Part shown: positions 1 through 64,000 of the stretch, piece after piece
Position numbering within the stretch: the first letter of the stretch is position 1
Layout of the letters: each line of letters starts with the position of its first letter
Assembly: GCF_035083965.1 (NCBI RefSeq)
Contig: NC_089731.1
Coordinates: 5,183,501 to 5,247,500, forward strand
Direction of reading: 5' to 3'
DNA length: 64,000 nucleotides
DNA from: Branchiostoma lanceolatum
Taxonomy: Eukaryota; Chordata; Leptocardii; Amphioxiformes; Branchiostomatidae
Position numbers and translations under genes: made by a program
Notes under the pieces: generated by a model
What the model saw: only the letters and a program-made list of their open reading frames with translations
Told to the model about the DNA's origin: nothing
Databases searched by the model: none

Positions 1-3000
1 ATGTGGCACTTCAAGATGAGAGAAATCGGCGACCTGGTAAGAACCGCTTTTTTCAACCAAATAGTTATTTAGATTCAGTAGCAATAATATTTCTTATTTC
101 AAGTCTGATAGTATGTATGCAACTAATAGTTTTATAATGATGTGATCTGTGATTTGTGATTTATTGAGATTGTACAGTACAGTACAATACACGTGGGCCA
201 CAGGCAGCTGTTGCTGGTGTCGTGGCCCAAACACAAAACAATACGCAGCACATAAACTACAAATAGCAAACAGTTCTATCCGTATGTAAAACTGATGGAG
301 AATTTCTCAAAATTTTCAGTACCTTATGTTTAATTTTGCCAATCACAGGCGGGGAAATATCTAGAAGCCATAAAGGAAGGTCGTGCAGAGGCTCCTGGCG
401 TCCCAAGTGAGTATTGCATCACACCTAATTTTCTTCCTTTCCGTGATTGCGCGCATGCGGACTTTTATAAAAATGCTACACTAAAATGACATAGGTCAAG
501 TAAGTCAAGTAAGTCACACTAAAATATGGTACCATCAAAATGGTGTATTATACAGAATATTTACTCTTGCAATGTTGACTCTGAGGGAAAGGAATACGTC
601 TAGAATAACGTATGTTGGAAACAAACGTGTATGAATTATGACACACTAGTCAAATCGCGGTGATTCGGACTTTCATTTCTGTATATAGGTAATTCTTGTG
701 AACGATCGGCTCAAGATCAGAATGATTATCATTTAACAACTCACTATCACTCACTCATGCATGGCCGCATGCTCCCATGTGGTGCGCAGTGCCTCGGCAT
801 ACGGTTCTCCAAGTAGTCCCCAAGCAGAGCTTGGTGGACAAAATGTGAACTTTTTAGCATCAACAAAGCAAGAGAAGTACTGACAAAAAACGAGGTATAT
901 CATGAAAAGGTCACAATCTCCTCCATAAACCTCTGCTTAGAGAGTCCAAGTGGATCTGTCCCTGGCTGCCCCCAGGCGGTATTCGGGTTTAGGCCTGCAG
1001 CCAGTAGGCTAGGTCATCCTTCAGCTAATCTTAACCTTTGATTGTTTCCCTGATGGGTACAACTACAACCTTAGACTTTTCAAGTCAAAGGTGAACAGAC
1101 ATCTGTCATTACATTACAGTCCAGTATAGCCTGGATGCCAGACCCCCAATCTCTATAATATCTATCGTCCCCAAACGATCCACATGTTAGAGATTGGGGG
1201 TCTGGCATCCAGGCTAAGTCCAGTCCAGTAACCAAAACATGTGAGAGGCTCTTATGAGCCTTGTTTAGCGATAAAATTTAAGTAAATAGAAATAATAACT
1301 TCGTTTTTAACAACACTATATTGTTTTTTTCAACAGTGGGAAGCGAAAACTTCCAGAAGTGGGAGCAGAGCGTGCTTGAGCTGGACGACATGGTCCGGAA
1401 GATGACGGGTGTGGCGGGCCTGGAGAGCGCGCGGGAGAACCTGTACCGTCTGGAGGAAGTCGATCTCGAACCGGCGGTGAGTTAGCTTTTGTGAATTAGA
1501 TTAATTGTAACTTTTATTATTATTGTACTTTAGTTTGTAAATGTGCCTTTGTATTATATTTTGTTATTTCAGTTATTTTATGTTTATGTTTATGTATGCA
1601 CGCAGGGCGCTTTGAAAATCGCCCTAGTGGTGACAAGTTTGTCCCTGGATAAATAAATAAATGAAAAATGAAAATTAGGCCATGCTGATTTGATTTTATG
1701 GACGACATCCTCTGATATCTCCAAAACTGATGCAAGTGTGCGAATAAAAAAGAGTTTGGCAAAAATAGTTGCCTTCATTACGAAATCTACAAGGTCAGGA
1801 AGGTTGAGCAAATGCCTAAAATGATAAAATAATAAAAGCATAAAAGAATTCTTCTTTTCAATATCTTCATACCTTCTTCTTGGACTTTGCACTTGATTTC
1901 GGCATGACACGACATATCTATCGTTTTCCATATACTAGTAATCAAATCAATATGGCCTTCCGGGCACCTTGGATATAACAGAAATTATTTAGCACCAAGC
2001 AGCTAAATGCCATTTGTAAAGGCACAGATACAATTAAGTACATTTTTATTCTGATTGCGAAGACTCTAAGATTCCATAATTAACCGTGCTTATCCCGTCT
2101 CATTTTACTCATTATTACGTTGGATTTGGGAAATAAGGGTTCTCAAAACGCAACCTAACGGATCTCCTTGCAGCAGAACGTCCGATTTTGATATCTCGTG
2201 TTCTATGCAAGGTATGGTGACCGTCGTAAATTTTGGGTGATAGATAGTTCTTGCGCAGTGATGAAGCAATTGACTGTTTGACACATCCAGCTACAACTCG
2301 AATCACGGAGACAAGATGCGGAAGAGGCAAAGGACGCTGCGGAAGGCGCCGCCGCTGCTGCCGCCGGAGCTGCGAAGGAAGCCGCGGGCGAGGCTGCAGA
2401 AGGAGCCGGCGAGGCTACGAAGGGCGCTGCGGAAGGAGCCGCCGACGCTGCGAAGGGCGCTGGGGCAGAAGGAGCCGCTGCTGCTGCAGCTGCGGCTGAA
2501 GCTGCCAAGGAAGCCGCCGGAGCTGCCAAGGAAGCCGCGGAAGGAGCCGCCGACGCTGCCGCCGCAGCTGGGGAAGGAGCCGCCGACGCTGCAAAGGACG
2601 CAGGGGCAGAAGGAGCCGCTGCCGCTGCCGCTGCAGCCGAAGCTGCGAAGGGAGCCGCCGATTCAGCAGGTGAAGCCGCGGGCGAGGCTAAGGAAGGAGC
2701 CGACGACGCTGCCGCTGCAGCTGGAGCCGGTGGGGCCGCTGCAGCAGCAGCCGACGCTGTGAAGGGAGCCGCCGATTCAGCAAGCGTAGCCGCGGGCGAC
2801 GCCGCTAAGGGAGCGATCGACTCCGCCGCTAAAGCTGCCGAGGGCACGGCGCTGGGAGATGCCGCCAAGGGGGCTGCGGATGCGGCAAAGGGAGCTGTCG
2901 ACAGCGCGAGTAAAACCGTCGGCGAGGCTGCTAAAGGTGCTGCAGACAAGGCTGCCGCGGCTCTTGGAGGGGCGGCTGCAGGAGCTGCAGGAGCCGCAGG

Positions 3001-4541
3001 GGCCGCTGCAGGGGTTGCTGCGGCTGCAGGAAATGGCGCCGGTGCTGCTTCAAACGCTACTGCTGCTGAAGGTGATGCTGCCGGGGAAGGCGCAGCTACG
3101 GAAAAGGCCGAGACCGCGGATGAGGCAGCGGCCGGAGCGGGAGTCGCCGGCAACACGACAGAGACCGCGAAACCAAAGGTACTGTGAACGTTCTGTTTCA
3201 TCTTTGCTTGAATAAATGCCCTGAATTCCTTGAAACACAAGCACGGGTTTGTTTCTTTTATACGAGAGCCCATAGCGACACCAGGCGAGAGTTTACATGC
3301 CTCCGCGCAGCTCTTGTGCGGTGTCGCTATGGGCTATCGTACGTTTAGTGGAAGATGACGGTCCGGTGTAACAAACCCGGCAACCTTTTTACTATAACTA
3401 CCGGTACTCGCATTCGCAACTTACGTTGGTACGTTGGGGAGAGTCAGACATCTAGCTATAGGTACATAATACATTATATGAATCAAACAGGTTGGTTAAG
3501 CAGGTGATCTCTAACAGTCAAGCATTTCAAACAGCAACTGCTGTCTTTTGTCATTGAACTGTGGGAGACTCACACAATAACGGATGCTGTCTGAAACGCC
3601 TGACACCTTCAGAGACGCTATCCGGTTGTTTGATTTACTTTGTATACTATCTTTGCAACTCTGTTACACAGAGCTTGTAGTAGTATCCTTTTCATACACA
3701 GATATTTTGTTCTTCACGAGGATATATGTATGTGAGCGTTGTATATTGATGATGTTCATCTCTTCTGTTGATTAGAGTTGTCCGATATTCTGCTGGCAGT
3801 GGGGAGCGAAGGTTTGCTGTCCGCCGAAATCGTGCACGTAAGAACCGTGACTTTCTGTCTTCCTACCTTGCATGGTGTGCCATCATAATCCATATATCCC
3901 TGGTATAGTAGCCGTTAAACTAACTACGACGGAATCTAGGTTATGTTTCATAACTCGTAGCGAAGTCAACAACATGTGTGAAATCACGAAAGAGAGAAGA
4001 TTTAACTAGTATTACTACCTACGTAGACTGGATGTAAATGAATTGTAATTTCAAGTTAACAACTGATATATGGCAAGACCAGCAAAATGAAGCTTAATTT
4101 CCAAGCAGATGTTTAAGCGGACAATTGTACAGTTTTCTGACCTGCCAGCTTTTCTGACAGTCCTCTTAAACTGCCATTGACGTCGGTCGATCAGAAAACT
4201 TCACAGTTCTCCACCCAACATCTTCTTGGAGTCATTTATCTGGACCGGTCATCAAAATAATAGTAATATAGAAAACTACATAAAAGTCTATCACAGTGAT
4301 GTAATTTGTAAATAGTGTATGACAGGCTGATATATAGAAAGACATACATTTAATGATTTGTATCTAGATTCTAGAATATTCTTTGCAATCATTCAGCTTC
4401 AGTAACGCTATATTCTGTTCCTAACGAAATACTTTTTTGTTTTTATTTCGTCACACATAGGTTCTTCTGGTGCGCCTAAAGGACAGTCCAGAAGTACGGC
4501 AGCCGGCCTTTCTTGGAGACGTTATTTCGCTTTCGCTTTGA
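1..4541 (+). CDS. Multi-exon gene with alanine-rich LEA-like repetitive exon (5' end may be missing)
   Basis: Six exons join in phase: 1-36, 349-406, 1337-1476, 2291-3178, 3778-3837 and 4461-4541 (TGA), each with a plausible GT/AG pair. The product is at least 420 aa. The first ATG is base 1 of the window, so the true start may lie upstream. Residues 1-78 are charged and helical (for example ENFQKWEQSVLELDDMVRK). Exon 4 gives 296 residues made mostly of Ala, Gly, Glu, Lys and Asp in AAKEAAGEAAEG-type units. The last two exons encode an ordinary hydrophobic/charged tail ending VISLSL. If exon 4 were not spliced at 3178, translation would stop at 3187; the coding quality of the two later exons argues for splicing. 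The repeat resembles group-3 LEA 11-mers, which form helices on drying in other taxa, but low complexity alone can create that likeness. I do not recognise the family and assign no function. Confidence 0.6.
1129..1214. mobile_element. 86-bp hairpin MITE, copy 1
   Basis: Near-perfect inverted termini beginning GCCTGGATGCCAGACCCCC are separated by a short loop, and TA lies on both sides. A shorter copy with the same termini is at 56799-56859. It lies in intron 2 of the alanine-rich gene. TA flanks would suit a Tc1/mariner-type MITE, but the second copy does not keep the right-hand TA, so the superfamily is open. Confidence 0.75.
2291..3178 (+). repeat. GC-rich coding repeat, LEA-like Ala/Glu/Lys units
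   Basis: This 888-nt exon is built from recurring GCC/GCT/GAA/AAG/GGA codons. It contrasts sharply with the AT-rich surroundings, and the composition keeps long stretches of other frames and the antisense strand open as well. The sense frame beginning CTACAACTC is chosen because it is in phase with exons on both sides. Periodicity is imperfect, about 11-12 residues. Confidence 0.7.
3261..3341. repeat. Hairpin (22-bp stem, 37-nt loop), probable MITE
   Basis: Left arm 3261-3282 and right arm 3320-3341 are inverted copies around the core CCCATAGCGACACC, with one or two mismatches. It lies in intron 4 of the alanine-rich gene. Confidence 0.7.
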
Positions 4542-8825: not shown

Positions 8826-8929
8826 AGTATACATCAATTCATAAATTCATAAATTCGTGAATTCACAAATTTATGATTTATATACACACCCGCGAGTCAA
8901 GTCTATGAATTTATGAATTTATGAATTTC

Positions 8930-9436
8930 AATGATATAATATCGTAATATCATAATTTCATAATAACATAATATGATATCATAATAACATAATATAATAT
9001 CATAATATCATAATATCATAATATCATACCATAATATCATAATATCATAATATCATAATATCATCATATCATCATATCATAATATCATAATATCATAATA
9101 TCATAATATCATAATATCATATAATATCATATAATATCATAATATCATAATATCATAATATCATAATATCATAATATCATAATATCATAATATCATAATA
9201 TCATAATATCATAATATCAGTCGGCATGATATTATGATATTATGATATTATGATATTATGATATTATGATATTATGATATTATGATATTATGATATTATG
9301 ATATTATGATATTATGATATTATGATATTATGATATTATGATATTATGATATTATGATATTATGATATTATGATATTATGATATTATGATATTATGATAT
9401 TATGATATTATGATATTATGATATTATGATATTATG
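8930..9436. repeat. AT-rich 8-bp satellite arranged as a ~500-bp palindrome
   Basis: The left arm (about 8930-9219) repeats ATAATATC. The right arm (about 9225-9436) repeats the reverse complement GATATTAT almost without error for some 26 units. The arms meet at a spacer of a few bases near CAGTCGGC. Such a structure can extrude a cruciform and is also prone to assembly error. Confidence 0.85.
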
Positions 9437-9479
9437 AATTTCAAGAATTTCATGAATTTCATGAATTTCATGAATATCA

Positions 9480-10000
9480 TTGTACCAAAACTAGGTGCGG
9501 AAAAGTCACATGTACATGTACTATGTCTTTCAAAATGTGTATGATATGGAATAAAGATTTATTCTATTCATATATATTGACTGTATTTCATCATCACTTT
9601 CAACTTACAACACTGCAATATCGAACCTTTGTGGCCCATATAATATCACCATACCTGTGCCACCAAATGATTTTTAACCCCATCTAGACTGAACTCATTC
9701 GCCCCATCATAACTTCCAAATGCATGATCACGTAAATATCAATCACTCTCCATAATAAGCCTTGATTATTTGGCGAAGATAATGTGTTCGTGGAACTCTA
9801 GTTGGTATCTGGTAATGTTCCACCTGCCACCTGTTACATGTATTTGAGTCCTACAACACTGCAAATGTAGATTTTCCTCATCAATTATGCAAATTAATAC
9901 CCAATTTGCATAATCTGCACTTCATTGTGTACATCTCTGTCTAGGCTACCTGCATACTAAATATCTCGGAAATCCGTCGATCCTTTCTTTAGTGATTCAC
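9480..10000. other. Intergenic, no gene seen
   Basis: Unique-looking AT-rich sequence. A block at 9765-9800 partly matches 6100-6140 in inverse orientation (CATTATCTTCGCC). Confidence 0.4.
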
Positions 10001-17795: not shown

Positions 17796-20700
17796 ATGTC
17801 TTCCGCCAGGCAACAATTCGTGAGTCCCATGCATACAGAAATGACAGACGAGCTGGCAAGGCTTAGATCTTTTCGACTGTGGCCACCTAGTGCTCCAGTC
17901 AGCCCACTGGCACTTGCTGAAGCAGGTTTCTTCTATACATGTAAGTAACATTATTGTATGTATGTGTTGTGCATGTGACTTCTTGTTTCATTCTAGGCAA
18001 GCATTTTCTCCTCAGTAAACTGATTCAATTTAAAACAGCATTTAGCACACTGTCTCTCTTCATTATTTCTATTGGTTACTAGGTTAGGCAGGAGGGAGAA
18101 GGTTAAAAGAATTTTCTATGATAAGTAAAATATGACTGAATCCACCATACATTCATGTCTTGTATTCACAACACACAAATTTATCATGATTGCAGATATA
18201 GCAGACCAGGTCAAATGTTTCTGGTGCGATGGAGGACTGAAAGACTGGGAGCCAGGGGACGACCCATGGGAGGAACATGCAAAATGGTACCCACAGTGTG
18301 AGTTCCTGCTGCAAAGGAAAGGAGAGGCCTTTGTGAGAGCGGTACAGGCCTCAAGATCACCTCTACTTAACCATCAAGGACAGCAAAATGTACAGGTATG
18401 CAACTTGCTACAGTTTGTATAACTTTGAATCAAAAAGAAAAATATTCATGACAAGTCCTATTCCAAAATTCATCTAGCTGCTTGAGTAGCTATCATCCTG
18501 CATTCATTATAAAGTTTATATCCATGCAGTTGTTGCCTTTGGTGCTAAATAGCATACCGATCAGTAGCTTTGTCTAATATCTTACCGACTTTTTAAGCCG
18601 CATTCTATTCTATGTAACACAGATGCACCTGTATCACAGTCAGCTGGGAATCAGTCTGCCCCTCAGCAGTGGGAAACACCAGGACAGGTTCGAGGTTCTT
18701 GTGCAAGTGAGCGACCGGGTCATGGTGGTGGACGTCGCCTCGGTGGAGTTCCTGGAGAATCCACCCTCCCCTGCCACAAAAAAGTAAGTTCACAACCATG
18801 TTAAGAAACGGTGAAGTTTTACAATCATAACTAGTGTTCCATTCAAAGCTTCTCTCTTAAGTATAGTACAGTAACAACAAATTATGCTATATACCCCACT
18901 CACATACATGTATCTAAGCTGCATGTGTATAAGCTATTTCTGGCTATAGACCTATCGTAGATTCCAAATTTCTAATTTCAAACAATAACTTATGTCAGCC
19001 CCTGGTCTTTGTGTATGCTTTGTATGGTTTTGTGTGGTATTACATATCTAAACTATTACAAATTCAGAAGTATAACTGTGTATTTTGAACATACAGACCG
19101 GTTGACATTCCTTTGGGGGTCCAGAAAGCTGTGATGGAGAGTCTACGAGAAGTTCTCTTCAAAAACAGCACAGAGTTTCCAGACCTTCCATGCCGGTACA
19201 AGCCAGGAGGAGTCTAGTGAGTTCATCTACAGTTCCATTTGAAACGTCTGTTGATATGTTAGTGCAAATTTTAAAGTAGCTTAGAAAATGACATCTTTCC
19301 AGTAAATTGATCAAAGAAAAATATGAGAGGTACAGAAAAACATTTGTGACCGCCAAAAAAGACGTTTGTGTACTTGAGTATCAGAGTTGTACGTACAAGG
19401 TCTGCCACTGTACAATCATAATCAAGTTGTCTAAACTCTTTGATGTAGGGGTGTTGGAAAATGTGTGAGTACTTTGATTTAATCAAGGCGGTGTTGAACC
19501 AAGACAACAGCACTGATCACTCTTTTTCTTTCACAATGCCTATCTAGTGAGCACAGACAAGACAGGACTAAAAAGGTGGTTGTGAGCTCTACTGCCCACG
19601 CCAACTTACAACGTGACACGGTCTTGGTAGCACCGATCAATGAGATGAGGACTGCAGACATCAACCAAATCACCTCAGCAAAGAAGGTAACTAAGAAACA
19701 CACACACACTAAGAGACACACTAACACACATACACATACCCAGACTAGAGAGAGAGAGAGAGCGGGAGAGGGAGAGGGAAAGAGAGAGGGGGAGAAAGAG
19801 AGAGAGAGGGGAGAAAGGAAGAGAGAGAGACAGAGAGAGATAGAGAGAGAGAAAGACAGAGGGAGGGAGAGAGAGAAACCGTGAGACAATTGCTAGCCAA
19901 AGACTCGTCATGCCAGCTGCCGACTGACTTTATTCTAATATTGACTCTGACCTTATATCCACCCCACAGGAGGACCTTGTCCCCACCAGTGATGTTCAGT
20001 ACTACGACATCGCGAGACTGTTGGACGATCTGGACAGGAGGTTCTTCTCCACTCTGGGACCAGACCCTCACCAGGTAAGGGGAGATAACAAACTTAAAGG
20101 TGTTAGAAAAGAATGTAGAAAACACAAGGTTTGAAAATAGCACAACAACAAAAAATAGTGCAAACTAAGGCTTTGGTTCACAAGTTCTTCTCATTTTTCT
20201 CATTTTTGAAAATATCTTTATAGCAATGTGCCATTGTGATAACATGTGCACCAGTCCTGTAATACATGTATCTTCATAGCTATTATTTGTCATTATAAGA
20301 ACAAATGTTTGGTGTATTGACCATATACTTGTATCCTCTTACACACAGATCTGTGCTGATCTGGCAAATATGCCAGTACCAAACCCCACTTGGACAGACA
20401 GAAGCAAGCTGCCAGTGGGTAAGTGTTACAGACCTGTACATACACATTTTTAGACTTTGATAATGATCTCTGATTTTCTGGCTTTAGCCAACCATGTCAA
20501 GTAAAATGAAAGACATAAAAAAGGAGTTTTGAAATCTGTCAAGACTCTTAATGGCCATACTCTTAATGTTACAAGTAATGCAGCTAGTTTAGTTCAAATA
20601 CTGCACCAAATAATAGACTGTAATTGTAACTGTTAAGCATCTCCATTGATGTCATATTTGAATATCAAAGAAAAAAAGGAGGCTTTAATAAAAGATTTAC

Positions 20701-21315
20701 TTACATTTGTCTACAGGTTGGCTTTCAGAACAAACCCTGCCGAGAGAGGTTTCCAGCGATGTCATCTCTCCACAGGCCAGAAACGCATTTGGGCCAGGCT
20801 ACATCCCAAAGTCGACAACATTCCTCCACACCGTGGACGAACGGGGTCTGAGACACGAGTCAAAAAGACTCGAAACCTTCTCAGATTGGCCTCAGCACGC
20901 TCCTGTCAAGTCGGAAGCCCTGGCTGCAGCTGGATTTTTCTACACTGGAAAAGGCGACAACACCCAGTGCTGCATCTGTGGGAATGTGATCAGCCACTGG
21001 AAGGAGGGGGATGACCCAGTGGTAAAACACTTCTACCTCTTCCCAGACTGTGAGTTCATACTGGGTTATGGTGTCGGGAACGTCCCGGTGTCATCATCGC
21101 TGGAATCCCAGCAGGAGACAGTCCCCTCAGAAGAGAGCGAGGTCGAGAGACTGAAGGAGGAAAGAATGTGCAAGATCTGTATGGAGGAGGAGACAGAGAT
21201 AGTGTTCGTGCCGTGTGGACACTTCGCAGTATGCCAGAACTGTTCCGCCAGTCTTCACTGCTGCCCTATCTGTAGGAAAGACATTGATAGAACTGTCAGA
21301 ACATACATGGCTTGA
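17796..21315 (+). CDS. Inhibitor-of-apoptosis protein: BIR, novel middle region, BIR, RING
   Basis: Eight exons: 17796-17940, 18196-18395, 18623-18783, 19097-19216, 19548-19686, 19970-20074, 20349-20418 and 20717-21315 (TGA). All phases match, giving 512 aa. The start at 17796 is chosen because a strong pyrimidine-tract acceptor ends at 17737 and 17796 is the first ATG after it; 17697 is an in-frame alternative adding 33 residues. BIR1 (about 20-90) has the zinc ligands in VKCFWC, EEHAKW and PQCEF, and keeps Trp-Glu in DPWEEH. BIR2 (about 364-430) has QCCIC, KHFYLF and PDCEF. The RING (about 465-500) runs [24 protein letters not shown], a C3HC4 E3 ligase typical of IAPs. Residues ~116-313 (exons 3-7) match no domain I know. 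IAPs bind caspases and ubiquitinate signalling partners; kappaB-like upstream modules fit known NF-kB induction of IAP genes. Confidence 0.9.
19746..19878. repeat. GA-rich simple repeat in IAP intron 5
   Basis: Purine tract dominated by AGAG and GGGAGA words. It produces spurious open frames on both strands. Confidence 0.9.
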
Positions 21316-40440: not shown

Positions 40441-40570
40441 ATTTGAAAACTTGACGACCGACGAGAGTCCAAATACGGGCTGATCAGTAAATCTGTCAGG
40501 TCCTCGCCTTTATAACCTCGCCTGTGCGTGTTTGGCAAAACAGTGGAGGGAAGAACTTATTTCAGAATGC
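40441..40570 (+). promoter_or_regulatory. TATA promoter segment of the CARD-LRR gene
   Basis: TTTATAA is at 40509-40515, about 130 bp before the ATG. The ~118-bp segment, including GGCAAAACAGTGGAGGGAAG, is duplicated at 46209-46326. Confidence 0.55.
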
Positions 40571-40640
40571 ACGGGAGAGCCAAGAAGAATTGTCGTCAAC
40601 TGCATTCAAGTGGAGGGTAACAGGATCTCTATGTAAAGGC

Positions 40641-43600
40641 ATGCATGCTCTTCTGCGCGACTCGCTTTTGAGGAATTCGACAACGTACGTGGACAACTTG
40701 AAGAACATAGAAGAAGTGTTAGGGTTCCTTCAACACGACTCCGTCCTTAGTAAAGAGGAAATAACCCTCATACTGTCCATTCCCAAGACTGAAGACAAGG
40801 TAAAGGTACTACTAGAAATCCTGGTTAGCAAAGATGACCGAGCCTTCTACGTCTTTCGTGACGCCCTTAGAAAAACTGGCTTCGGGCACTTGGAGGATTT
40901 GCTTGACGACGGCGCCGCGGCGTTTACAGGTAAGGGACCAAAGTTGACGAGTTATTTGCCTTTTCTATTGTAACTACACAACCAAGCAAACATATGAGCA
41001 CTCTTGTGTAAATCTAAGGCTTTGATACCAAAGAGGCGAACGTTTTGGAGCAACACTTAGACCCAATGCTCGAAGTCATAACGTTTTTTACAGTAACAGT
41101 ACGTGGCATGGCAGTGCCTTGTAGATGTGTGTTTGTACCCCCTAACTGTAAACCATCACCCAACTGCACAAATTCATGCTTGGTCATGTTAACTCGAAAG
41201 ATAAACACACATGTGGTGTGTGGTGCATACTGTACACTTGTTAGCAGTCGCCCTGCCGGAGCGGTTGGTTGACGACCACGCTCGAACGCCGCTGAGTCCC
41301 AGACGACAGAATTCCTCTCTGTCAGTTCGGGTTGCAGCAGACTTTCGCACGTCTTTGAACACAGAAGGGAGGGAAACGTTAACATAACCCATACATGTTA
41401 TATAGTTGTCTTTGTTTATGTTCTTTTATTCTGTTGAATAAAGATTGTTTAAAATATATATATATAACGTTAACCCACATTATTTGAAAAAGTTCAACGC
41501 CAAGGCTGTAAGCATTTCATCACAAGAAATAGAATCATGATATTCCGCATTCATAGCAGGAATGCATTTGTATTGTAGTTAGCCGTGAATCTTTTATACA
41601 GACTTCCTTTGAAGTCACGTGCCATAATATACAAACTCAAAGGTTAATATAATATACAGGTGCTTTCGTGATTGTCTATCATAAACGTATGGGGGGAGGG
41701 GGCACTTTCGAAGCTTACACACCATCCCAAACAAAATAATTGTCCCGTCAAAAGGAGCAGTCTGCTTGCCTAAAATTGACGGAGATGCTACTATTATTTA
41801 AAAATTTGGCACATGCTACGGAAATAATATAACGTTACATTCGTATGTAGAAATGGACTTTAGTCAACTTCATCCAAAATATACACTCTGCTGACCACAA
41901 AACGACACAGGCTATTCCCAAGACAATATACAACTATAATAGATACACAATAGATTGTTCAGCACTATATATACACATATTCAACATGTGTGTGTACATG
42001 GTACTGGGCAAACTACAGTATTTTTTGTCCCACGAGATATTTGTAATGGAAATATTGATGCCATGTCTCATGCTTTTTTAAAAGGATCAGGAACGCGAGG
42101 GAAGCATCGAGTCAAGCGTCTGTCGCCTCTGCAGGCAACCAACGTCACACAAAGGAAACCTCACGGTAAGGCACGGATCATCACATTTTAGTAGACTATA
42201 GATTTTCATTGTCCCTATTCATCTACTTAATGGCAGTGGATAAAGCTAATGAATAGACTGAAGCTGATATGAAATAGGGATGGATAACAGACTAGCTTTC
42301 CATAGCCATTCCATAGCCATGATTACTAGTATGATACATAACGTTTGCAGCTGGCGATATGTACTAGTTATTCTTTTATGTCTATCTTTTCTATGACTAT
42401 GACTATGTGTAAGACATATCATGTTTGATCTGTCCAGGTGCTTTCATGAGCAAGATCCCCCAGCTGCCTAATATCACAGCGGTGAGAAGAGCCGCAGTGC
42501 TCGAAGACAGAGATGTGCTTGGATTGGAGAGACGCGAAGAAAACACAGGTGACTTTTTTAATGACAACTTTGATTCTCAAAATCTGAAAAAATTACAGCC
42601 AGGGTGATCTCATATGACATACATGTATGGAAGGGCTAGGGCTAGTGACCCTTTCCATGATAAACATATTGCTTATTCAATGAGCAGATATAGAATGTAG
42701 TTCTCGATGCATATATTTTGTACTTTGTACTTTTATCTGTAGATCTATTTGCTTTTATGTGTTTGTACTTGACCATACGAAAGCTACTGTACCTTTGTTG
42801 TGTCAATAATCTAGCATTCACTGAATAAAACCTTTTGGCCACGCCTCAGGGGCGAAGGATGTTATTTTCTCTTACGTTGGTTTACATTACTCATCTTTTG
42901 TTTCTCTCCAAAAGGAGAATTACGAGGAAAATCAGATTCCAATAGACGCACCAAGCTCAGTAAGAAGAAAACAGTTTCACCTCGGGAAGAAATGGGTATC
43001 TGGACAGACGGAGAACAACCTCCGAACGAACAAGCAACTCAGAACGATGAAGTTTCTCAAAAAGAAACGCCACGTAAACAAAAAGAGCGACCGCCTGAAT
43101 CTCAATCGGAACAAAGTACGGCACCACCAAGCACATGTACAGAGGGGTCCAAACTTCCGACTCCACAATTGCAATGTCTTCAGTTCTCGATACTGAACGT
43201 CGAGAAAGTTCCTCCCCAAGCAAGCGAAGCCTCTGAAGAACTTGGAACACTAGACACACCATCAGATCTTGCAACACTGGATACAGATAAAAACGCTCCA
43301 CCAGATCTTGCAACACTAGATACAGATAAAAACGCACCATCCCCCACGTCCAAAAGTACTTTGCTGGAAGAGGCTGATTTGGATACACAAACATCTTCAA
43401 CACGCGAAGACCAAGAGAACGACGAATTAACCGTAGCAAATGAGGCTGTATTTTCAGACACTGCCCGTCCGAGACGAGCATACAGGTGCAAACTATCGCT
43501 ACACCTTAAATCACTGCAACAACATGGAAGCAAATCCAACCACTCTCAATCCGAACAAGACAGACTCAGGAAGGCCGGGGACCTCTTTACGACGGAGCTA

Positions 43601-45472
43601 ATGACCATCTCACAGAGATACAAAGACTTGGAGGTTGTCCTTAAGAAACACGGAGCTACCCTACTGACCGTCTCCAGGGCTAACCGGGCGAACAGTGTGA
43701 CGTGTTTGCTGCGGTTTCAGGCAGGGGACGACTTAGAGGGATTCTGGCGGGCGTATCGGGAAGGGACGGTTGCCATGGATATATCACGTGATCTAGTTTC
43801 AGACGACGTCTGCAAGGCGGCGAAACGACTGAATCTGACCGTGGGATGTCACATGGTGGAGAAGGAATACCAGATGGGAAGGGTGCATTTCCAAGGTCAG
43901 TGGCAACTTATTCGATATATTTAAGAAAAAAAATCAAAGTTCCAACATTGATTGATGTACGCTACTGTTAACTACGTATTACAAAGTGATGTATGATATT
44001 GACACAATGTTGGAATTTGACCTTTTTTCACGAAAAGAAGTATCGTCTGTTTATATCTGTTAAGTTTTAATCGTCAAATATTCTGCATAATACATGTGCA
44101 CATGAACGATGGATTGAATATAAAACAGCCACAAAGATTACTCATTCTGACGGTTTATACGTTATGTTTACACGTTGCAGGTGCATGTGAGGGCCTCCTG
44201 GACCCATCTCATTATCCGACCTTCGAGAAATACATCGTGGACTTCTTCCAGGGCGGTGACGGCAGCACCCTGCACGCCCCCTTCCGCACCAGCCCGCTCC
44301 TCTCCTGTCTGCTGCAGGATAACTTCTTCTGGCCGTTCGTCTGCTCCTACTGGAAGGACTGCAGACAGCCGCCGGCAACCCTGACGGACTTCGTGCTGTA
44401 TTGCGTAGAGGATGGGGCCAACCTTTCACAGGAAAACGATGGTCCAACTGCTGTCCAGTTCTACAAGGTCCTCCACGACAACTTGGCCAAGTTGTCGGGC
44501 ATAGGTGAAGTAAACATGCAATTCAGTGCAACAATCAAGTCGAGGTCCTCGTTGGTTAGAACTGAAGAAACTTTCCCTCTATTAGATCTACTTCTGTTCA
44601 TGAACCACCTTAAAGTACTTGTTCTACAGAATCAAAGACTCGCAGATGCTGACGTAGTAACGCTATCGCAGCGATTGTCAAGTTTAAATCTTCTAGAAGA
44701 GTTAGACCTCACCAACAATGGTCTGAACGATGAGAACATAATGAAGCTAACACACGCGTTCCCACGCATACCTGACCTTAAGATTCTAAAGATGACTGGC
44801 AACAAAACAACACCGCCGGGAACGAAACACCTGCTAGACCAAATATCGTTGTTGCAGAATTTAGAGAAGTCAGACTTCCGAGTTTTGAACATCTCGGGTG
44901 TCCGTGTTTCGCTTGAAGACGCCACGAAGATGCCCCACGCGTTGCGCTCCATGAGAAACTTAACATCGGTCGATTTAAGCGCATGTGGTTTAGAGGACGA
45001 CACCGCGATGAAGTTCGTTGAAACTCTAAGAAAACTTCCTCACGTTCGTCATCTTAACATCGGAGGGAATCTGATAACGGACAAAGGTATATCTGCGATC
45101 TTCAGACAACTGCGTCACATGAAAGCGCTGTGTAGAGTCGACGTCAGCTCAAACAAGATGACCACAGCCTGTCTCGCTCTTCTAGCCGACCACATCGGTT
45201 CCTTCCACGAGCTGAAGGAGTTGATCCTTCTAGGCGTTCAAAAGATAGAAGACTCAGTATCTGAGACACTTCAACTCGTGTTAGGATTCATAAACAGTTT
45301 GGAAGGGTCGATGGGGAGCGGGGATGATGCAGACTCTTTGTTTGACAAGATTTTGAATGAAGATATGGATGACGAGGCCTTAGAGAGTAACATCAAAGAA
45401 TCGCTGTTAAAGTCTGAACCGATTGTTATCTGGACAGGCGACCTTTCCGTTCATCTTGGCATCATTTTGTGA
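40641..45472 (+). CDS. CARD / TRADD-N-like / LRR protein resembling an NLR without a P-loop, 917 aa
   Basis: Five exons: 40641-40929, 42085-42165, 42438-42548, 42915-43895 and 44181-45472 (stop). They total 2754 nt and all introns are phase 1. The start is the ATG before HALLRDSLL; the frame is open upstream to 40524. Residues 1-96 fit a CARD (LLRDSLL, VLGFLQHDSVLSKEEI, KVKVLLEILVSKDDRAFYVF, ALRKTGFGHLEDLL). A polar linker follows, with two copies of DLATLDTDKNAPP. About 365-487 resembles the TRADD-N-type domain found in invertebrate immune proteins (LRFQAGDDLEGFWRAYREG, then EYQMGR). About 488-610 resembles the part of NLRs after the NACHT core (SPLLSCLL, then PPATLTDFVLYCVED, FYKVLHDNLAKL). 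Six or seven ribonuclease-inhibitor-like LRRs follow (LEELDLTNNGLNDENI, LTSVDLSACGLEDD, VRHLNIGGNLITDKG). No Walker A or B motif is visible. A role in CARD-based sensing or scaffolding is inference. Confidence 0.8.
40930..42084 (+). other. Intron 1 of the CARD-LRR gene
   Basis: Over 1.1 kb. Palindromic AACGTTAAC words at about 41374 and 41466 flank an 80-bp stretch ending in AATAAA and (AT)n, a possible small insertion. No exon was accepted in it. Confidence 0.4.
43267..43344 (+). repeat. 39-bp coding tandem duplication
   Basis: Two nearly identical 39-nt units encode DLATLDTDKNAPP/S in the linker of the CARD-LRR protein. Confidence 0.9.
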
Positions 45473-45650: not shown

Positions 45651-45656
45651 AATAAA
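45651..45656 (+). terminator. Poly(A) signal AATAAA of the CARD-LRR gene
   Basis: About 180 nt after the stop codon. Confidence 0.65.
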
Positions 45657-46208
45657 TTGTGTCTCTGTTAAAAAATTCCATTTGAATTTGTTATAGTCTC
45701 TAAGCAGATTTTACAGTTCAGTCAGCATGCAGAAAACAACGATTCTCTAGCTCACTATTAACCTCTGCTTGGAAATCGACTATTGGTAGAACTGTTAGCA
45801 TCACTGTTATTGCTTTAGGCTGTGCTGTTCCAGAAAATCTTAACCTGAAGCATAAAAAAGGTCCAGGATCTAGGAAAGATTGTTCAAGAACCTTGGTATG
45901 GAAAGCAAGTTGCCCTGCTAAAGGTTTGGTTTCAGTACTGGTGATGACACAAGCAAGGTACCGTGCATATCAGTGAAGCAGGTTTTGTGTTCATGGATCA
46001 AAAGCGACCTCTAGCAGTCATTGAAATAATTGCACGGATCGACTCAATCAGCTGCAAAACAACATGCATCGCCAGAGGCCCCCACTGACACGTGCATGCT
46101 GGTGAGCGTGAGTGGGTTAGTGAGTGAGGAAACTTGCAGATCAAGGGTGCCAGCTTAATTAGTGTCCAGAACAAAATACTAGTAGACACACAAATAGAGA
46201 AAGGCTTT

Positions 46209-46326
46209 GACGACCGGCAACAGTCCAAATACGGGCTAATCTGTAAATCTGTCAGGTCCTCGCCTGTATAAACTGGTCTGTGCGTGTTTGGCAAAACAGT
46301 GGAGGGAAGGACTTATTTCAGAATGC
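46209..46326 (+). repeat. Duplicated promoter/5'UTR of the CARD-LRR gene
   Basis: Matches 40446-40566 almost throughout (GTCCAAATACGGGCT, AAATCTGTCAGGTCCTCGCC, GTGCGTGTTTGGCAAAACAG), including a TATA-like CTGTATAAAC. Homology resumes after an insertion at about 46460 (AATTGTAGTCAACT). No CARD coding frame follows, so it is a promoter copy without its gene. Confidence 0.8.
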
Positions 46327-46333
46327 ACAGGGG

Positions 46334-46459
46334 CCTACCTGCCTACCTGCTCAGGCCAGAAACTGGCCCCTTGCTTTCCAGGAGGATCCTCCAAGCAGTC
46401 CTGTCCCTTGCCCTAGCCTCTGCTTCCCGACTATAAGCCCGTGTCCTTCTGCACAGGGG
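46334..46459. mobile_element. 126-bp insertion in the duplicated promoter
   Basis: The original segment lacks this stretch. It is bounded by the direct repeat TGCACAGGGG (46324-46333 and 46450-46459), which fits a 10-bp target duplication. Content is C-rich with no recognised family. Confidence 0.6.
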
Positions 46460-46499
46460 AGCCCACCGGAATTGTAGTCAACTATAACTGGGGTTGTAG

Positions 46500-52637: not shown

Positions 52638-52880
52638 ACGCTCATTCTCATTTAAATGTACACATTTTGTAATCTCCTTTACCGTTAGAAGTAAGACGTT
52701 CCTGACATTAAGATATGCCACATATAAGGTACCAAACTGCCGTTTTCAAAAGCTACAAAAGTTTTAAGTCGTCATAAAAACTACAGTTTGACATCTTATA
52801 TGTGGCATATCTTCAAGAACGTCTTATTTCAATCGGTAACGGAGATTACAAAATGTGTTCATTTAAATGAGAACGAGCGT
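52638..52880. mobile_element. Foldback element, ~100-bp arms
   Basis: Arms 52638-52739 and 52784-52880 are inverted copies (CATTTAAATGAGAACGAGCG against its complement; ATATGCCACATATAAG at the inner ends) with a ~44-nt loop. Divergence is modest. Confidence 0.8.
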
Positions 52881-61860: not shown

Positions 61861-61896
61861 AATTTGTTTGGTAAGGAGCTCAGACGTCTGAAAAAC

Positions 61897-62108
61897 CATG
61901 GGTCTACATGTCTTATACCTGTGCAACCCAGGTCAGAATCATGGGTCTACATGTCTTACACCTGCACAACCCAGGTCAGAATCATAGGTCTACATGTCTT
62001 ACACCTGTGTACTATAACCCTATACAGCTGTACGACAAGTAGACCCATGATTCTGACCTGGGTTATGCAGGTGTAAGACATGTAGACCCATGATTGCAAC
62101 CAGGGTTA
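61897..62108. repeat. 43-bp tandem repeat followed by inverted copies
   Basis: CATGGGTCTACATGTCTTA starts at 61897, 61940 and, with one change, 61983. The reverse complement (TAAGACATGTAGACCCATG and ATGATTCTGACCTGGGTT) fills 62040-62108. The block can fold into a long hairpin. Confidence 0.8.
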
Positions 62109-62109
62109 C

Positions 62110-64000
62110 CCATGATGTTGACCAGGTGTTTGAGGATATTGTTGATACGTGTGGGTGTGGTGGCCTGGGCTGGAGTTGAAGCCATGACATCATTGTTTAG
62201 TTCACAGGTGTTTCTCCAATTCTGGGATATACATGCAGGTGTGGGGAGAGATTTATGTCAAGTAAATTATAGGATACAAAATGTATAATCCTTTGTGAAG
62301 GATACGCTTTTTAAATATTTGATATGTTACTGGTAATATGGATACCAGACATAATATATTTTCTGCTTTGATTCAGTTTGAATGTCATATTTCTTAACAG
62401 TAATCTTTGACCCCTACTTTATTTGTTATGGATTCCAATTGTCACATTATCTTGCATTACCTTTTTCTTTGATTCAAAGTTTGAAGTAGCTCAGTTTGGA
62501 CGTAAGTCTCAAAATCCTCAGATATCAATAGTTAATACAAATGTACCTTTTGTAGAGAGTGACAATAACAACAGGTGTGACTCATCATGTAATTGCATGA
62601 TGTCATACAATCCACGTGTTTGACAGAGTCTTTAAAAACTTGAAGGCACGATAATTGCCCGAAGAAAAACCTAGTACTGTACCATTTTTCTTGATAATAT
62701 ATTCAATTCATTTGAATATCATACTCGTTTATTATCGTGCGAAGCTCGAAGAAGACTGGGGAAAGGAGGTTTTCGTAGCATTTCACGTTCTGTAGTACAG
62801 TATTGATACATTGAAAATGCATATTCATGGTGGATAGGTCACTGCGCAAACCTGCAAATAAAACGAACATTGCAAGATATACCGTAATATATGCTGAAAA
62901 CAATATATGGATGTATTTGTGGTTGAATTTCAATGACAGCTGTCAAAATACAAATTACAAACTGCAAAAACATAGTACCCAAGGGTTTAGAGATTGTGTC
63001 GGAATGAGTATGGAGTTGACAATACCCCCTTGTGTGGAATAAATATTTGTATATTTTAATGATGTACAGTAATGTGAAGTATGTCTGTGCCTGGCAACCC
63101 TCTCTGCTGGCTAGACCATGCATGCTTGGGGAATGCCTGGCTTGTATAGCTAGGAATATCTAAGAGTGAAAATCATTTCTTGGAAAAACCACAATGGTCA
63201 TGTTGTATATTTCTGTTCAGTTTACTTGACTGAATGTGCTTTTTTCCTGTCAGATACCTATAAAAACTTTTATAGATAAGAAGAATATGTTTGTTAGAAA
63301 ATGTGACCACTTATATTTGAATTAATGTATCCATTCAGTTGCTTATATTATTTATAATACAAGCTCTAGTATTTCATGTATTAAAAAAATTACTATATGC
63401 ATATAGTATAAGAAATTGTTCTCAGGGAAGGTTTAGTGAAACATAGTGTACATTATTCCCCTATGATAATTAAAAATTACTGCTATGATAATGAATGCTT
63501 TTGTTGTTGGGTTGTACTTGGACTGTGTAAATATTGTTTGAGGGTTGGTATGCATGACAATGTCTGTAAAATATAAATTGAAATTGAGAATGTCAAGTCC
63601 TTGTCAGTGTTAATAAAAAGGTTGAAAGTGGGAAATTCCTAGCGCTTACCACACACTCATCATGTGACAAGTGTTTGAGTCCATAAACTACATGTACAAT
63701 GGTTTGTCCTTTGGTAAAATGAATAGAGAATCAAATATTTGCTAAGCAGCCTTAGCAGGGCACTTTTTGCCAGTCATGTGCCTATAAGAAACAAGTTGAG
63801 TTCCTGTAATAATGTAAATTCATCTATTTTCTCTGGGACTTGATTTAGTGGCAGGACTGGAAGGAGATTTTGCAGTGTTCAAGTTTGTGGTTGAAACCGT
63901 TCTATGGTTCAGTAGAGATACATTGGGAACACCTTTTTGGAAGCAGAACCCCCTATGACATATGCACCCGACTTTGGCCTCCATCTAGGACACCGGCTTG
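62110..64000. other. No gene recognised
   Basis: AT-rich noncoding sequence. A possible small element with GCACGATAAT inverted ends is at about 62645-62745. A diverged relative of the ACTGTAAAT MITE may lie at about 63810-63900. Confidence 0.4.

Follow-up and report, generated by a model that had tools for sequence, protein, structure and literature searches.

A lancelet gene joining a CARD, a likely TRADD-N domain and leucine-rich repeats without a nucleotide-binding core

The stretch of DNA analysed here, hereafter the window, comprises 64,000 nucleotides of the lancelet Branchiostoma lanceolatum (assembly GCF_035083965.1, contig NC_089731.1, positions 5,183,501 to 5,247,500). Positions 40641-45472 of the window hold a predicted gene whose product begins with a CARD, ends with leucine-rich repeats (LRRs) and probably carries a TRADD-N domain between them, with no recognisable nucleotide-binding core. 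Exon junctions were predicted from the sequence by placing splice sites and then joining the pieces, which gave five exons on the forward strand (40641-40929, 42085-42165, 42438-42548, 42915-43895 and 44181-45472). The joined frame amounts to 2754 nt, or 917 residues plus a stop codon ending at 45472. In agreement with the first-pass annotation, which had described five in-frame exons separated by uniform phase-1 introns, 4/4 introns interrupt the frame in phase 1 and all of them have a GT donor and an AG acceptor. Exons 4 and 5 lie in stop-to-stop open frames of 369 and 483 codons, respectively. GC content is uneven across the codon positions of the exons (0.52-0.62 at the first, 0.29-0.54 at the second and 0.44-0.58 at the third) and amounts to 0.32-0.39 in the introns, a pattern that fits coding sequence. 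A candidate poly(A) signal, the motif AATAAA, is located at 45651-45656, 179 nt past the stop codon.

Exon 1 encodes residues 1-96 plus one further nucleotide, and residues 9-89 (about 40665-40907) match Pfam CARD PF00619 with an E-value of 8.7e-10 and a score of 38.9 bits, above the cut-off of 23.9. At the other end of the protein, Pfam returned significant matches to LRR_6 (E 1.5e-8) and LRR_4 (E 2.5e-6), and together with visible repeat cores these place the LRRs at about residues 630-832 of exon 5 (44606-45214). A PDB sequence search of the protein was considered for the best 60 of 72 sequences found with an E-value of at most 1. Among the matches listed, those at the N-terminal start were a designed protein (E 4.8e-5), Apaf-1 (E 0.02) and CED-3 (E 0.037), while those of the LRRs included RanGAP1, DRC5, NLRP5, NLRP1 and ribonuclease inhibitor. 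The LRRs are followed by a translated C-terminal tail with an acidic stretch, which runs to the stop codon (45215-45472). Exons 2 and 3, placed by their splice sites and in-frame joins, are 1-1-phase linker exons, and the first part of exon 4 (42915-43465) encodes a polar linker with two exact copies of a DLATLDTDKNAP unit, at residues 278 and 291. Two TRAF-binding-like motifs of one TRAF2 type occur in the linker, where 1.4 would be expected, and none of the other two types; the count is uninformative.

At 1155 bp, intron 1 is the longest of the gene; AATAAA motifs lie within it at 41437 and within intron 3 at 42824. The translation has in-frame ATG codons in exons 3 and 4 that could serve as a separate start. 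These features would suit a faulty gene model in which the CARD exon forms a short transcript of its own and exons 2-5 belong to another, a reading we regard as highly improbable. The CARD exon is directly followed by a strong-looking CAG/GTAAGG donor, the phases agree at 4/4 junctions, and the AATAAA at 45651 lies past the stop.

The lack of a nucleotide-binding core was examined at several levels. Neither NACHT nor NB-ARC gave a Pfam match in the protein at E up to 10, a negative that is limited by the HMMER filters, which remove most matches above an E-value of about 0.1. The Walker A pattern GxxxxGK[ST] does not occur in the 917 residues. Relaxing the pattern to [GA]xxxxGK[ST] gave three sites in the six frames of the window, in open reading frames (ORFs) of 42, 53 and 54 codons, and none in any frame of positions 40641-45472. 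An exon with a Walker A motif hidden between 43895 and 44181 would have changed this picture; the seven ORFs of at least 25 codons scanned in intron 4 had no NACHT match, and an ATPase would not fit into the 285 bp of this intron. Intron 1 was partly covered for a hidden exon, in that five ORFs of at least 60 codons are listed there besides one of 60, and four of these were scanned. A Pfam scan of the seven intron 4 ORFs and three intron 1 ORFs produced a single line, MEDS at E 0.13, which was taken as chance. The CARD, the LRRs and the missing Walker A motif thus stand as the first-pass annotation had given them. Compared with what defines an NLR, the protein has an N-terminal death-fold effector domain (the CARD) and C-terminal LRRs, and membership in the NLR family fails because the defining NACHT domain with its Walker A motif is absent. 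"NLR-like" is a fair description of the manner of working, not of family membership.

Residues 345-487, encoded by the second part of exon 4 (43466-43895), are likely to be a TRADD-N domain, to judge from alignment and from a predicted model. In a local alignment to residues 67-142 of one sequence, human TRADD, residues 426-456 aligned without gaps to TRADD 75-105 (raw BLOSUM62 score 49, z 5.7). This score was reached by 2 of 2000 shuffles, and by 6 of 2000 when the whole TRADD protein was used. Against human TRADD, the other parts of the protein (CARD, linker, helical stretch and LRRs) scored like shuffled sequence. The structure model of the region is of low confidence, with a predicted local distance difference test (pLDDT) value of 43.5, and has the order strand-helix-strand-strand-helices-strand. 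When this low-confidence model was submitted to Foldseek, the TRADD N-domain 1f3v_A ranked first among 608 PDB matches (probability 0.97, E 0.031). Members of the TRADD-N superfamily are marked by an RRM-like fold and, in the turn that joins strands 2 and 3, by a tiny residue plus a serine. Here predicted strand 3 begins with Asn420-Ser421. Asn does not count as tiny, and in the ungapped alignment Ser421 is three columns off human Ser67. TRADD was named by neither the Pfam nor the PDB sequence searches, so that the label has weak or missing support there, and a PDB sequence search of the region itself gave four designed TIM barrels and two olfactory marker protein sequences, with no TRADD. The TRADD-N-like region of the first-pass annotation is likely in view of alignment and fold ranking and left unnamed by profiles: of the CARD, TRADD-N, NACHT and LRR domains for which it had suggested an HMM search, the CARD and LRRs were found, NACHT was not, and TRADD-N was not named.

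Several known architectures resemble this one. Kaur et al. (2021, PMC8195603) report that TRADD-N domains occur mostly singly, between two other globular domains, and propose that TRADD-N keeps its neighbouring domains inactive until a signal arrives. Their cephalochordate expansion comprises 46-71 DEDD2-clade and 13-129 NCOA6-clade proteins, and the authors take the raised sequence diversity of the expanded families in lancelets and other invertebrates to reflect selection for immune diversification (PMC8195603). Named lancelet architectures are DED-TRADD-N-WD40 and GT4-TRADD-N-LRR; the GT4-fronted TRADD-N followed by LRRs occurs in cephalochordates, hemichordates and cnidarians, and the sponge Amphimedon combines death-fold, TRADD-N, SH3 and LRR (PMC8195603). 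Like the invertebrate DEDD2- and NCOA6-clade proteins (PMC8195603), the present gene would place a death-fold domain ahead of TRADD-N and end in variable C-terminal repeats. It differs in having a CARD instead of the usual DED, and GT4 and SH3 are not seen in it. Its polar linker precedes the TRADD-N region, whereas that of the lancelet DED-TRADD-N-WD40 proteins follows it (PMC8195603). Provided that the TRADD-N call holds, the order CARD, TRADD-N, LRR is that of a death-fold plus TRADD-N adaptor. The lancelet NLRs described are CARD-NACHT-LRR, CARD-NACHT or Death-NACHT-LRR (PMC11508797); the gene shares with the NLRC-type, CARD-NACHT-LRR proteins the CARD first and the LRRs last, but has no NACHT or P-loop and likely has a TRADD-N between the two ends.

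Between the TRADD-N region and the LRRs lies a stretch of about 138 residues (first part of exon 5, 44181-44593; residues 488-625) that is predicted to be helical. No Pfam or NCBIfam family matched residues 488-625, where an NLR would have the HD1, winged helix and HD2 that follow its NACHT, and the one match of a PDB sequence search of the helical region was at chance level. The structure model of exon 5 is of low confidence, with a mean pLDDT of 41.9. An artificial NLR consensus served only to retrieve NLR segments for comparison. Of three short HD1 helices compared, that of NLRP6 fits the protein best at residues 537-548 (FWPFVCSYWKDC; 60/2000 shuffles within residues 488-630, 75/2000 for the whole protein), and so does that of NLRP3 7lfh (219/2000 and 464/2000, respectively). 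This HD1 resemblance is a hint at most; it is non-significant and would vanish after correction for multiple comparisons. The best alignment to a longer NLRP3 segment, spanning HD1 and winged helix, was out of register (82/2000), with the CARD region giving 149/2000 in the same comparison, and the HD1 segment of NLRP1 fitted best in the TRADD-N region instead (9/2000).

These results bear on the possibility that the gene is a true NLR derivative, in which a CARD-TRADD-N-NACHT-LRR ancestor lost its ATPase and kept the HD1/winged-helix end of NACHT ahead of the LRRs; such a remnant might today serve intact NLRs as a regulator or decoy. The overall domain order is that of an NLR, the HD1 helices of NLRP6 and NLRP3 find their best place where an HD1 would be expected, and an ancestor with both domains is conceivable given that some oyster TRADD-N proteins carry STAND NTPases in their variable part (PMC8195603). 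Nevertheless, the shuffle values are not significant, the longer NLRP3 segment aligns out of register and the NLRP1 segment fits best elsewhere, no NLR helical family was found by Pfam or NCBIfam, only about 140 residues separate TRADD-N from the LRRs, and the seven intron 4 ORFs of at least 25 codons had no NACHT match. We consider such descent unlikely, and an NLR that lost its NACHT is not established as the ancestor. Because no family matches between TRADD-N and the LRRs, and because invertebrates have architectures with TRADD-N then LRRs that are described without a NACHT, no loss of NACHT need be invoked. The post-NACHT-like helices of the first-pass annotation accordingly reduce to the weak HD1 similarity, and its description of an NLR with the ATPase missing holds for the CARD first, the LRRs last and the absent P-loop, whereas a loss is not shown. 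An origin by shuffling of 1-1-phase exons seems more likely than deletion of NACHT from an NLR; exon shuffling in lancelets is biased to such exons and yields more than ten new domain pairs per Myr (PMC4284660).

The surroundings of the gene contain several further features. A 125-bp element 5' of the start codon (40451-40575), perhaps a promoter or 5' leader, although this role is a guess, repeats downstream at 46207-46331 with 91% identity, and a further 34 bp (40568-40601) match 46450-46483 past an insert with TGCACAGGGG on each side. A tblastn search of the window with the protein recovered the gene itself and two chance matches, with no second coding copy, and neither the TRADD-N region nor exon 5 retrieved a relative from viral contigs. 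A forward-strand ORF (20692-21312), some 19 kb upstream of the gene, combines a BIR domain (E 3.4e-21) with a RING finger (E 1.1e-14) and represents an IAP-type gene. Another forward-strand ORF (2282-3187, 301 codons) is alanine-rich and repetitive and had no Pfam match at E up to 1. In a self comparison of the window, 8905-9480 matched itself both directly and as reverse complement, and imperfect inverted repeats at 61894-62112 and 52638-52880, whose arms measure 68-92 nt, are possibly small transposable elements.

Taken with the known architectures, the gene suits an invertebrate immune adaptor of a type already described no less well than it suits an NLR with a lost core. We think it probable, with some reserve, that it encodes a nucleotide-free adaptor of the death-fold plus TRADD-N type that works inside the cell in immunity or cell death, in which the LRRs bind, TRADD-N acts as the hinge and the CARD recruits. 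The LRRs would bind a ligand or partner, and TRADD-N, situated between both ends, would serve as a protein-protein hinge that restrains the CARD and releases it on LRR engagement, as Kaur et al. (PMC8195603) propose for TRADD-N proteins at large. The freed CARD might then nucleate or join a CARD assembly and bring in a caspase or adaptor that itself carries a CARD. With no P-loop in the predicted protein, TRADD-N would relay LRR binding to the CARD without a nucleotide cycle. PIDD1 offers a likeness to this proposed working, as its LRRs and death-fold domain form a caspase platform without a nucleotide switch, though its layout is unlike that of the present gene: the LRRs come first, ZU5-UPA lies between, the death domain comes last, and no TRADD-N or CARD is known in it. 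TRADD and DEDD2 are not known to have LRRs. PIDD1 is part of the PIDDosome (PMC8385073). Lancelet caspase prodomains can be DD, DED or CARD (PMC2575513). The nucleotide-independent CARD scaffold of the first-pass annotation is a fair functional reading, since its CARD, LRRs and missing P-loop were confirmed and TRADD-N is likely.

Two other readings differ in what the LRRs and TRADD-N do. In one, the protein does no sensing and its LRRs are an assembly surface only, comparable with TRADD or DEDD2, which likewise pair TRADD-N with a death-fold domain, in their case a death domain or DED in place of the CARD (PMC8195603). The structural or housekeeping proteins RanGAP1 and DRC5 among the LRR matches listed would agree with this. 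The LRRs of NLRP5 and NLRP1 are among those matches as well, and the raised diversity that Kaur et al. (PMC8195603) interpret as immune selection in invertebrate TRADD-N families speaks against it; we find a non-sensing adaptor very doubtful. In the other, the protein is a nucleotide-free, inflammasome-like sensor in which TRADD-N, in place of NACHT, is the conformational switch that couples LRR sensing to CARD polymerisation; it might be an NLR descendant with a stub of the NACHT helical arm. We hold this reading to be quite unlikely.

A kind with TRADD-N followed by LRRs is already known in invertebrates. The exact CARD-TRADD-N-LRR combination was not described in the published titles and abstracts found, and a literature search for NLRs with CARD and LRRs lacking NACHT found no paper. 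The sensor-adaptor proposed here would add a CARD-bearing case to the TRADD-N expansions, so far described mostly with DED, and would be a lancelet example of an immune adaptor built by shuffling of 1-1-phase exons. If TRADD-N can replace NACHT between LRRs and a CARD, then a nucleotide switch would be dispensable for LRR-gated CARD signalling.
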